Part shown: piece by piece, positions 13,312-26,715 of the stretch
How the letters are laid out: every line of letters begins with the position of its first letter
How positions within the stretch are numbered: the first letter of the stretch is position 1
Virus record (IMG/VR): IMGVR_UViG_3300042544_001476
Coordinates: 1 to 41,668 of that record
DNA: 41,668 bases
Direction: 5' to 3' (one strand)
DNA from: a virus
Notes under the pieces: model-generated
Database searches by the model: none
Told to the model about the DNA's origin: nothing
The model's input: only the letters and a program-made list of their open reading frames with translations
Made by a program: the position numbers and the translations under genes

Positions 13312-14946
13312 ATGAAGACTTATGTAGATTGGTTCAATGAACTACCTGAGCCGTATAAGACTCAGGCCCTGGAAAATGTAAGGAGTGGTAGATGCTCGCA
13401 TTCTAATGAGTATGACGAGAGCGACACATTCATATCAATGGCTCAAGCTATTACTATGACTATGCGTTGGAGTCATACCCCACAAGGTCATGAGTATTGG
13501 AATGAACTGTATGATAAGTACACGGAAGAACATAGGGAGGCACAGCGTATAGAGGAGGCTATAGCAGAGCAGAAGGAGGAAGAGGCACGTGCAAGAACTC
13601 GTGAACTTTATAGGATTAGAGAGAATAGGCTTGTTACATTCAGCGAATCAACACGCTCTATGTTAAGGGAGTTGGAGAACCATAGTATAGTAGCTAGCTT
13701 AATGCTTAACTATTCTGACAAAAGTTTATTTTGTGACTATGTAACTATGCGTGGCGAAATGTTTTCTTATCTACCAAAGGGTAAGCCGCACGTTGTTAAT
13801 GATAGCGGAAGATGGGCACGTGAAGGTAGGCAAGAGATGAAGCCAGGCAAGATAGCTAGAAAAATACTACATGAAGATGATGAGATAAGAGATGAACTGT
13901 ATCATAAGATTACGCTGACAGATAAGGACTTCGAGCAGTTCGGCAACATGGTAAGGTCGTACATAGGTATTAACGGAGATGAAGACGGAGAAGGTAGAAC
14001 GCTAACCATGCAAGTATTCTCAGGCGAAGATATACGTTGGGGTTACTATGAGGATAACTATAGCCAACTTGCAGATAGTGGTAGTAACTTGTGGGGTTCA
14101 TGTATGCGGTACGGCTCGTGTCAAGATTACTTCGACATATATGTAGAGAACAATGTCAAGATGTTAGTAGCCAAAGATACGATTGGTAAGATTGTAGGTA
14201 GGGCGTTACTATGGGAGTGCGAGAACGGTAGGAAGGCAATGGATACTATCTATTCTCCTGACAGAGTTAGGCAAGTGTTTATCAAGTGGGCTATCGACAA
14301 CGATTACTATTACAAGTCTCAGCAGTCATGCCATCATCATGAGTTCGATATGTATGCAGGTGCTAGTTGTAGCGATTGGACAGCTGTTGTAAAGTTATCC
14401 GATGCTGACTTCTGCGAGTATCCGTACATGGATACGTTCATGTATCTTAATCAAAATAACAATTCCTTATCCAACAGAGATGACGACTATACTCATACGT
14501 TAAGATGCACTGACGGAGGCTATGATGAGAATGGCGTGTATGATGATTTTAGCGATTGTACTATTAGTGAAGAGGATGCTGTTTATTTAGATTACTGCAC
14601 TGACCAAGTTAGTTGGAGAGGCACTACGCACATAGATAATACAGTATCAACACGAGACGGATATAGGGTGCTTGATAGGGATTCTATTGAGGTAGATGGA
14701 TATTATTATGCAGAGGGTTCGGATAGTATTGTGTATGTTGATTCTAGAGGAGAGTATTATCATGTAGATGATACAGAAGAAACATATGACGGAGATACTA
14801 TTCACGAAGATGATGCCGTTCAGTGTGCACATACTGGTAACACATATCACACAGATGATATGGTAGAGGTAGAGGTATACATATTCGTACACAAGGATAG
14901 CGTTGAAGATTATTTAGAACAATTAAAAGAAGAAGAAAATGTTTAA
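13312..14946 (+). CDS. Large multi-domain early protein, 544 residues
   Basis: Residues 1-70 carry a module ending W53-S-H-T-P-Q-G-H-x-x-W63, similar to the 74-residue protein at 19913. A long charged helix spans ~70-108. The core (~240-345) has SCMRYGSCQDYFDIY (263-277) and GRALLW (296-301), a pattern I associate with phage proteins of unknown function. The last ~130 residues are Asp/Tyr/Glu-rich with repeated short units such as EYYHVDDTEETYDG and NTYHTDDMVEVE. The many Cys and His residues in the core (CHHHEF at 340-345) could bind metal. No enzyme family is recognised. Its end overlaps the peptidase gene by 8 bases. Confidence 0.75.
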   Translation: MKTYVDWFNELPEPYKTQALENVRSGRCSHSNEYDESDTFISMAQAITMTMRWSHTPQGHEYWNELYDKYTEEHREAQRIEEAIAEQKEEEARARTRELYRIRENRLVTFSESTRSMLRELENHSIVASLMLNYSDKSLFCDYVTMRGEMFSYLPKGKPHVVNDSGRWAREGRQEMKPGKIARKILHEDDEIRDELYHKITLTDKDFEQFGNMVRSYIGINGDEDGEGRTLTMQVFSGEDIRWGYYEDNYSQLADSGSNLWGSCMRYGSCQDYFDIYVENNVKMLVAKDTIGKIVGRALLWECENGRKAMDTIYSPDRVRQVFIKWAIDNDYYYKSQQSCHHHEFDMYAGASCSDWTAVVKLSDADFCEYPYMDTFMYLNQNNNSLSNRDDDYTHTLRCTDGGYDENGVYDDFSDCTISEEDAVYLDYCTDQVSWRGTTHIDNTVSTRDGYRVLDRDSIEVDGYYYAEGSDSIVYVDSRGEYYHVDDTEETYDGDTIHEDDAVQCAHTGNTYHTDDMVEVEVYIFVHKDSVEDYLEQLKEEENV

Positions 14947-19720: not shown

Positions 19721-19965
19721 TAGATTATTTATTCAGGATTATAGCCTATCCAGCTGTACTGTTTATTATATTACTGAACGTTATTAGATTCATAGTAGTG
19801 TTTAGTGCTAGGTATTTTAAATACGGCATGGAAGTATTAATCCATAAGCAGTTCGATAAGGAAACTGTTAGAGAGTTATTAGATTTATTAAAAAACTTCA
19901 ATGATAAGCTAAATGAAGACAGTAAGACAGCACTTGATAGAGAAATTAACTCCGGAACTATATGA
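19708..19965 (+). CDS. 85-residue membrane protein with helical tail
   Basis: Starting at the ATG at 19708 (MQKVVDYLFRIIAYPAVLFI); the earlier GTG at 19666 would double the overlap with the micro-gene. A membrane segment at ~10-34 is followed by an amphipathic region and an acidic/lysine helix (KETVRELLDLLKNFNDKLNE). The C-terminal 53 bases overlap the next gene. Confidence 0.6.
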   Translation: MQKVVDYLFRIIAYPAVLFIILLNVIRFIVVFSARYFKYGMEVLIHKQFDKETVRELLDLLKNFNDKLNEDSKTALDREINSGTI

Positions 19966-20137
19966 TAAAGCCATGGCTAATATTATATATGAACCTGGAC
20001 TAGATGTAGATGTTAGTAGTCCGTCAGGGGCTGTTGCATCTGCATTTGTTTGGGGTATGAGTCCTGAAGGATATGACTTTTGGGAAGATGTATTTGACAA
20101 TTTATTGAGAGATGTGGATATTTATGTTAGGAAATAA
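19913..20137 (+). CDS. 74-residue protein with W-x-x-[ST]-PEG-x-x-x-W module
   Basis: Contains VWGMSPEGYDFWEDVFDNL (46-64), matching the WSHTPQGHEYW module at the start of the 544-residue protein. Both are preceded by a Leu/Pro-rich helix and an Asp/Ser-rich turn. In phage genomes I recall this module widely in small proteins where a compact helical fold is likely; its partner is unknown. This is the last gene before the RNA region at 20138-20614. Confidence 0.7.
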   Translation: MKTVRQHLIEKLTPELYDKAMANIIYEPGLDVDVSSPSGAVASAFVWGMSPEGYDFWEDVFDNLLRDVDIYVRK

Positions 20138-20167
20138 TTGTAATTATCAAAAAATTATATACCTTTG
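20138..20167 (+). promoter_or_regulatory. Complete Bacteroidota-type promoter for the 20174 RNA
   Basis: TTG at 20138-20140 (-33), a 19-base spacer, then TACCTTTG at 20160-20167 (-7). This is the best promoter match in the early region and leads into gene-free sequence, so the product should be an RNA starting near 20174. The -33 element overlaps the last bases of the upstream gene. Confidence 0.7.
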
Positions 20168-20173
20168 TATCCT

Positions 20174-20282
20174 CATTTACAGAGTAGAGACTGGCAAATG
20201 ATTCTTCCTCAGTGACTTGTTAATAGACATAGCTTAAAAGAATCCCCACCCGTTCTCTACCCAGAGGTGGGGTTTTTCTTTT
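20174..20282 (+). ncRNA. Candidate ~105-base small RNA with own promoter and terminator
   Basis: GTAGAGA (20184-20190) is complementary to TCTCTAC (20254-20260). Nested inside, GATTCTT (20200-20206) pairs with AAGAATC (20238-20244). The 3' end can alternatively form the terminator hairpin 20244-20272, whose loop contains the same TCTCTAC. The 5' strand could therefore pair with the terminator loop (pseudoknot), or the long-range helix and terminator could be exclusive, as in attenuators. No reading frame of note is present. I do not recognise it as 6S RNA, tmRNA, RNase P or a known riboswitch. Confidence 0.6.
20244..20282 (+). terminator. Strong intrinsic terminator
   Basis: CCCCACC (20244-20250) pairs perfectly with GGTGGGG (20266-20272) around a 15-base loop, followed by TTTTTCTTTT. 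Plus strand. Confidence 0.75.
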
Positions 20283-20284
20283 AG

Positions 20285-20600
20285 GTCTTAACAGCGTTTC
20301 AATCCTAATCTGTAAGTAACAAAGCAGATAAATGAAAGTTTACAGTTCTTATCATTTAACGAATTAGATTTTGCGCAATACGTTTGGCTAATTCGGAGAT
20401 ATAAGTAGTAGTAAAAGTGGTAGCAATGTCTTACTGGTTGACAACTGCCGACAAGCAAAGGTTTTTAAAAACTACTACTCCCTTAGATATAGGGATATGA
20501 TGTTGAGCTATGAAGCCACTAGTTACATATATAGAGTGGTAGAAAATTCAAGTTTAGGTTAGTACCCTTTTGCTTGGATATAGAACCAGATATGCACCTA
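20285..20600 (+). ncRNA. Chain of hairpins, possible large structured RNA
   Basis: Consecutive non-overlapping helices fill a gene-free stretch. CTTAaCAG (20287-20294) with CTGTAAG (20310-20316). TAAATGAAAG (20329-20338) with CTTaTCATTTA (20348-20358), 10 pairs. CGAATTAG (20360-20367) with CTAATTCG (20388-20395). AGTAGTAGT (20404-20412) with ACTACTACT (20471-20479), which encloses GGTAG (20419-20423) with CTGCC (20445-20449) and TGTC with GACA. CCACT (20516-20520) with AGTGG (20535-20539). ATTCAAG (20546-20552) with CTTGGAT (20573-20579). The length of ~315 bases and branching recall large ornate phage RNAs, but no family match is claimed. AT-rich sequence makes some pairings likely by chance. 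Confidence 0.45.
20379..20386 (+). promoter_or_regulatory. TAnnTTTG box inside an inverted repeat
   Basis: TACGTTTG is a perfect -7 box with a TTTA 20 bases upstream (20355-20358). It sits in the loop of the inverted repeat CGAATTAG/CTAATTCG. The repeat could be an operator around the promoter rather than an RNA hairpin; transcription would then start near 20392. Confidence 0.45.
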
Positions 20601-20614
20601 TAAAAACAAATAAT

Positions 20615-20734
20615 ATGAAAGTATCAGTATTCAAGAACAGGTTCTACTTTGCACTAACCCCATCTATAAACATATACACATGGTGGTTACTAGAAATAAG
20701 TTGGTTAAACATTACTATAAACATTAGAAGATAA
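20615..20734 (+). CDS. 39-residue hydrophobic micro-protein
   Basis: MKVSVFKNRFYFALTPSINI, then YTWWLLEISWLNITINIRR. It is aromatic, probably a beta-hairpin or membrane-peripheral peptide; short proteins with an 'ISWL.i.I.i' end occur in other Bacteroidota phages. The stop is one base before the next ATG, supporting it. Confidence 0.6.
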   Translation: MKVSVFKNRFYFALTPSINIYTWWLLEISWLNITINIRR

Positions 20735-26648: not shown

Positions 26649-26715
26649 ATCCGGTTAGTTTAATGGTAAAACTATTCGTACGGATAAGATATTGGTTCGA
26701 TTCCAATACCGGATT
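26649..26715 (+). tRNA. tRNA-like element with contracted anticodon arm
   Basis: Acceptor ATCCGGT (26649-26655) pairs with ACCGGAT (26708-26714). The D arm is GTTT-AATGGTA-AAAC (26658-26672). The T arm is ATTGG-TTCGATT-CCAAT (26691-26707), with the canonical TTCGA. Between D and T arms there are only 18 bases, where 22 or more are expected. The best anticodon stem TATTC (26673-26677) with GGATA (26682-26686) leaves a four-base loop GTAC. Total length is 67, no CCA is encoded, and no anticodon can be assigned. Either a degenerate tRNA or a tRNA mimic. Confidence 0.6.

Follow-up and report, generated by a model that had tools for sequence, protein, structure and literature searches.

A kissing-loop RNA family, apparently undescribed, from environmental phages probably infecting Bacteroidota

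The loops through which RNAI and RNAII of plasmid ColE1 kiss are 7 nt long. The c4 RNA of phages P1 and P7 and the CI RNA of P4 lie on the same strand as their targets, and compensated differences between P1 and P7 result in heteroimmunity. Pairing of RNAI with RNAII proceeds by loop-loop kissing, and compatibility is set by the loop sequence (PMC9458437). Both c4 and CI are phage antisense RNAs complementary to sites in phage transcripts, and CI causes premature termination of the replication operon (PMC12197685, PMC4825925). The fhsA motif, a weak riboswitch candidate from Leptotrichia, is a cis leader of a bacterial fhs gene (PMC11109978). GOLLD and ROOL are large structured phage RNAs with kissing loops, often located by tRNA genes (PMC12286853). 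The trpB motif (RF04312), from Firmicutes and Fusobacteria, consists of a hairpin, a linker and a terminator hairpin with a U tract.

The window analyzed here is the whole of virus record IMGVR_UViG_3300042544_001476 (41,668 nt), in which a terminase and a portal protein were assigned to phage families. Isolate relatives of the terminase, found by protein search at ∼20-32% identity, were mostly phages of Flavobacterium and Cellulophaga, and the host is thus probably a flavobacterium. The N-terminus of a 544-aa protein (13312-14946) and a separate 74-aa ORF (19913-20137) match the same phage families, phrog_25460 and phrog_16354, both of unknown function. A tRNA was detected by Rfam at 26649-26715 (+; 48.7 bits), where ARAGORN did not call one.

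Noncoding DNA occupies the interval between an ORF that ends at 20137 and a small ORF that starts at 20615. A first-pass annotation, made from the sequence, had described there a promoter, a 5' GTAGAGA (X), a nested GATTCTT/AAGAATC helix and a terminator-like hairpin (H2), all of which are present in the sequence (Table 1); X is, as claimed, exactly complementary to the heptamer X' in the H2 loop. Its observation is confirmed and its interpretation partly supported, as detailed below.

Table 1. Positions of the features in the window, and members of the other 3' domain types
Feature	Position	Strand	Basis
Bacteroidetes-type promoter: TTG 20138-20140, 19-nt spacer, -7 box TACCTTTG 20160-20167	20138..20167	+	sequence, family-wide box
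Hairpin H1: stem CATTT/AAATG 20174-20178/20196-20200; loop holds X = GTAGAGA 20184-20190	20174..20200	+	comparative
Middle helix GATTCTT/AAGAATC: arms 20200-20206/20238-20244	20200..20244	+	sequence
Hairpin H2, terminator-like: CCCCACC 20244-20250/GGTGGGG 20266-20272; loop holds X' = TCTCTAC 20254-20260	20244..20272	+	covariation
U tract (TTTTTCTTTT) 3' of H2	20273..20282	+	in every copy
3' structured RNA domain, type A: ends joined by P1 20284-20290/20581-20587	20284..20587	+	covariation
Type A helix P3	20404-20412/20471-20479	+	alignment
Type A invariant-loop hairpin (GCAAUGUCU....GGUUGACAAC)	20419-20449	+	
Type A pseudoknot: CAAGCAAA/TTTGCTTG	20452-20459/20569-20576	+	
Small ORF (MKVSVFKNRFYF...), start ∼28 nt past the RNA	20615..20734	+	start codon kept in L002/L003/L013
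3' domain type B: L127, L139, L143, L144, L146, L154, L159, L195			
3' domain type C: L126, L128, L135, L148, L149, L169, L066/L129, L199			
3' domain type D: L158, L194			

Comparison among related contigs shows that the pairing of X with X' is genuine: the two loops kiss through a helix of 7 bp. Three loci of the same genus (L002, L003 and L013) align to the window at ∼93% over the RNA region, and their 5' domain is nearly unchanged outside hairpin H1 and the loop of H2. These two vary in concert: the X/X' pairs are GTAGAGA/TCTCTAC, TTGGACA/TGTCCAA and TTGGAAG/CTTCCAA, and a T-A pair of the H1 stem is replaced by C-G in all three. Compensatory changes in GTAGAGA/TCTCTAC, which the annotation had set beforehand as a test of its proposal, are therefore present within the genus, as they are in the wider family. 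All collected loci (2.08 Mb) were scanned with a descriptor that required a terminator hairpin with a 7-nt loop and, farther upstream, a second hairpin whose loop contains the exact complement. It returned 38 matches, all from this RNA family and some from overlapping loci of one contig, versus 0 in one shuffled copy, by which chance or an ordinary terminator was rejected. Adding copies with 6- or ∼15-nt loops brings the tally for the kissing 5' domain to 40 viral contigs, some of them near-identical, and to ∼24 distinct X/X' pairs, one of them made of 6-mers. Complementarity is full in 39 of the 40; the remaining contig, L169, keeps the 5' domain, and its imperfect helix contains one mismatch and two G-U pairs. 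In L128, L148 and L149 a 6-nt H2 loop is met by a 6-nt complement, the length shifting on both sides together.

In alignment A7 of the 5' domain, which was built from sequence only, double changes occur at 7/7 kissing pairs. Covariation of the whole 5' domain was 0.405, versus 0.143 ± 0.013 for shuffled alignments (0/500 reach the observed value) and at most 0.10 when slid. U-G pairs are conserved in both H1 and H2, which points to an element that acts as RNA rather than DNA; these pairs and the near-fixed promoter distance also make a DNA-level hairpin (origin or att site) less likely. A coding sequence was rejected by non-triplet indels, compensatory changes and stops. The heptamer GTAGAGA itself is common to the window and a distant clade (L108, L112 and L115) with a different H1 stem, a recurrence that may reflect coincidence, exchange or convergence.

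The TAnnTTTG box of the promoter matches at 6/6 positions in nearly all family members tested. Its distance to the variable 7-mer is almost always 20-23 nt, and 16-17 nt in the window genus. In other clades H1 takes the form UCCGA...UCGGG around a loop of 7 nt. The H1 and H2 loops of most relatives have exactly this length, and those of the window genus are longer. The GATTCTT/AAGAATC helix is invariant across the four same-genus copies and hence outside the reach of a covariation test, and the corresponding middle hairpin (helix 3) covaries in other copies. Taken alone, the window sequence has a minimum-energy fold that is only mildly unusual (z of -2.2 and -1.5 in two runs), so the case is carried by the comparative evidence. 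When L143, L110 and L140 were folded without constraints, X and X' each filled a loop of exactly 7 nt (z from -4.2 to -5.8). The long-range pairing was originally suggested to share or compete for the bases of the terminator. It does engage the H2 loop, but kissing leaves the terminator stem intact; the competing nested fold was computed for the window sequence only. A helix (P0) by which the leader would close on sequence past the U tract is supported in some clades, e.g., L140 and L141, and was rejected as a universal feature. Taken together, the comparisons agree with the annotated picture: the RNA is pseudoknotted, untranslated and driven by a promoter, and it includes a hairpin resembling a terminator.

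The description of the RNA as a stand-alone gene did not hold. In same-genus contigs the ∼300 nt past the U tract are as conserved as the 5' domain and form a structured RNA, for which no separate promoter was seen, so that the element extends to ∼20587. Pattern searches detected this downstream core in further phages, and close copies of it with upstream sequence present also have the H1/H2 domain, with different 7-mers. In the alignment of 12 copies of this type A domain, 95.1% of cells are paired and 26 pairs show double changes; covariation was 0.346, compared with 0.140 ± 0.011 after shuffling and no more than 0.076 after sliding, the slide control being inflated by derivation of the structure from these same sequences. 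The pseudoknot, CAAG(C/U/G)AAA : UUU(G/A/C)CUUG, was seen in three states. Independent support for the structure came from covariance-model matches at loci outside those used to build the model (L210, 9e-7; L160, 5e-5; L140/L142, 6e-6), in which the P4 stem is replaced (UGGUAG/CUGCCG, ACCAUG/CAUGGU and UGUGAG/CUCACG).

A second conserved structured RNA follows the 5' domain in every copy with enough sequence, and the two domains occur together wherever upstream sequence suffices, L206 excepted. In L206 (139-790) a type A core without the kissing domain lies directly after three tRNA genes, a placement that recalls GOLLD and ROOL. Sequence clustering of the DNA after H2 divided the 3' domains into types. 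Type A includes the window and L102-L114, the L136-L161 group (via the covariance model) and L145 (via its hairpin). Types B and C have 15 members, with an alifold energy of -75.7 versus -42.8 ± 4.3 for shuffled columns (8 members); no Rfam match was obtained for the 3' RNAs of types B, C or D. Some of the RNAs of these three types carry G-rich runs (GGGGGAGGGTAGGGAGGGGG). One 5' domain thus precedes three or more types of 3' domain that look unrelated, although types that BLAST does not link need not be unrelated, and this arrangement fits a regulatory module. A hairpin motif, GCAATGTCTNNNNGGNTGACAAC, with a sigma70-like promoter was observed in six viral contigs of 8-118 kb: L200 (2660-2682, -), L202, L203, L204, L205 and L207. 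A tmRNA lies nearby in L200, and L203 has a partial, below-threshold tRNA match. Homology of these contigs to the type A core is uncertain on the model score (E 0.02).

Searches at the gathering score of Rfam 15 identified no family for this RNA in the window, L103, L108, L110 or L114, in keeping with the annotation, which had recognized none. Searches by E-value threshold yielded tRNA, one tmRNA elsewhere in L200 and otherwise below-threshold matches. The whole Rfam 15 library includes the GOLLD and ROOL models, neither of which matched, and the trpB motif model scored 33.9 bits at L143 1918-2012 (gathering score 59). Resemblances of the 3' domain to group I introns, RNase P, tmRNA and TnpB-type guide RNAs received no Rfam support and were set aside. 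Model R2 gave no match under strict filters in 395 Bacteroidota genomes, DNA similarity searches of isolated phages and plasmids returned short chance matches or nothing, and a pattern scan of genome contigs gave two matches, both unrelated. The best examples among weak 5'-model matches in bacterial genomes and isolated phages were ordinary terminators without complementary loops. The kissing RNA family was not found among the isolates examined.

In most of the phages the RNA is located upstream of genes for an annealing protein (Rad52/ERF-like), an exonuclease and a primase-helicase, often with no TAnnTTTG box between the RNA and the next ORF. No such box was seen ahead of the small ORF in the window either, and this ORF is probably co-transcribed with the RNA. 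In L002 (9885-10029) and L013 (5509-5653) an extra small ORF directly follows the RNA; it is lacking in the window and L003. In L102-L104 the RNA lies in a structural-gene region and a promoter-like box precedes the next gene. None of 24 related viral records, which may be fragments, contained an integrase (PF00589), the control search being positive in 14/14 genomes; a role in lysogenic immunity is thus not supported.

The loops have changed much faster than their surroundings. Among copy pairs whose other columns diverge by 12% or less, and which are not independent of one another, divergence was 38% of positions in the kissing loops, 6.6% in the stems and 11% in the other columns. The 3' domains of L111 and L112 (∼320 nt after the loops) are 98.8% identical and the loops differ at 4/7 positions; L110 and L114 are 96.6% identical, with 5/7 loop positions different. 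Helices that covary freely, such as P3, sit in this near-unchanged 3' domain, so drift that merely has to preserve pairing explains the loops poorly. A better account would be diversifying selection, or else replacement of the entire 5' domain through exchange.

The structure of the 5' domain is well supported. We infer, with a probability of about 0.4, that the domain serves as a promoter-proximal conditional terminator of a phage leader RNA, controlled by lineage-private kissing loops. H1 and the terminator-like H2 would kiss via their complementary loops, and H2 with its U tract would stop part of the transcripts to yield a ∼105-nt RNA. The H2 loop would be kissed either by H1 of the same molecule or, in trans, by accumulated short RNA, and kissing would set how much transcription continues through the 3' structured RNA and, in most of the phages, through the early genes that lie behind it in the same orientation. 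Because the signal must, in this proposal, recognize its own phage lineage and not relatives, the loops would diversify with exact compensation, much as in antisense immunity or plasmid incompatibility. The comparative evidence shows promoter spacing, RNA-level structure, loop-loop pairing, the conserved H2 and U tract, exchangeable 3' domains and fast compensated loop change; transcription, its stop at the U tract, a dependence of that stop on kissing, an effect of the short RNA in trans and a specificity behind the diversity are what we infer from it, the effect in trans being suggested solely by the rate of loop change. The structural-gene context of L102-L104, the imperfect helix of L169, the pairing of leader with post-U-tract sequence and the lack of an integrase are evidence against a conditional terminator.

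Several of these observations would suit one continuous, trans-acting structured RNA of ∼410-430 nt, in the style of the large ornate phage RNAs; kissing would then be a tertiary contact within the molecule, and the U tract would serve as a linker. The pairing in L140 and L141 fits such a molecule, which would not require termination at the U tract, as do the strongly conserved and covarying 3' domain without a visible promoter of its own, its co-occurrence with the 5' domain outside L206, and the different gene neighborhood of L102-L104. This reading is possible, if on the unlikely side: a linker has no need of a U tract kept in every copy, an ordinary tertiary contact fails to explain loops that outpace helices such as P3, and the 3' domain is exchangeable. 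Pairing between molecules into a homo-oligomer (dimer or ring), comparable to phi29 pRNA or the GOLLD and ROOL cages, is improbable. Two non-palindromic, fully complementary 7-nt loops per RNA would suit head-to-tail assembly, and fast compensated change would suit self-recognition; kissing loops mediate oligomerization of GOLLD and ROOL (PMC12286853). Nevertheless, H1 and H2 are close and flexibly linked, so intramolecular pairing should compete strongly, and no packaging gene adjoins the element. It is highly improbable that the domain acts as decoy or target and that a third partner, an RNA or protein of the host or a rival phage, reads the 7-nt loop, with loop-loop pairing as the protected state and fast change as escape; an arms race would fit such change with pairing kept, but no partner was identified and 7-mers are too short for a target search.

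The family combines two testable modules: a candidate conditional terminator that works by kissing loops, and large structured RNA domains, of three types or more, without Rfam match. Its ∼24 candidate kissing pairs form a natural set for testing phage self/non-self recognition by short RNA loops. Type A, if trans-acting, would be a large phage RNA whose pseudoknotted core invites structure determination. It is doubtful, although conceivable, that a promoter-proximal module with two self-complementary loops under diversifying selection, common to several unrelated large structured RNAs, makes up a new class of phage identity-tag RNA; a lineage would then sense its own transcripts and ignore related phages' transcripts, as a private control of copy number or superinfection.

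Among described systems, the fhsA motif shares the proposed pairing of a terminator-hairpin loop with a preceding hairpin to control read-through, although the section of the source devoted to it mentions neither hypervariable loops nor phage members (PMC11109978). The trpB motif differs in that its model alignment lacks loop complementarity. The RNA of the window family is much shorter than GOLLD and ROOL and matches no Rfam family. Like c4, it has complementary sites on one strand that differ between relatives in a compensated way; in contrast, c4 and CI are processed repressor RNAs of temperate elements, and here a single 7-nt loop pair is present and no integrase was found. As in ColE1, complementary hairpin loops kiss, two of exactly 7 nt in L143, L110 and L140, but RNAI and RNAII derive from the sense and antisense strands of one DNA, whereas both loops here lie on one strand, so that each change takes two separate mutations. 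Since Rfam thresholds are unmet and either the strand arrangement or the temperate context differs, the kissing RNA belongs with none of these systems, and it apparently represents an undescribed family in environmental phages, probably of Bacteroidota, that works like parts of fhsA, c4/CI and ColE1.
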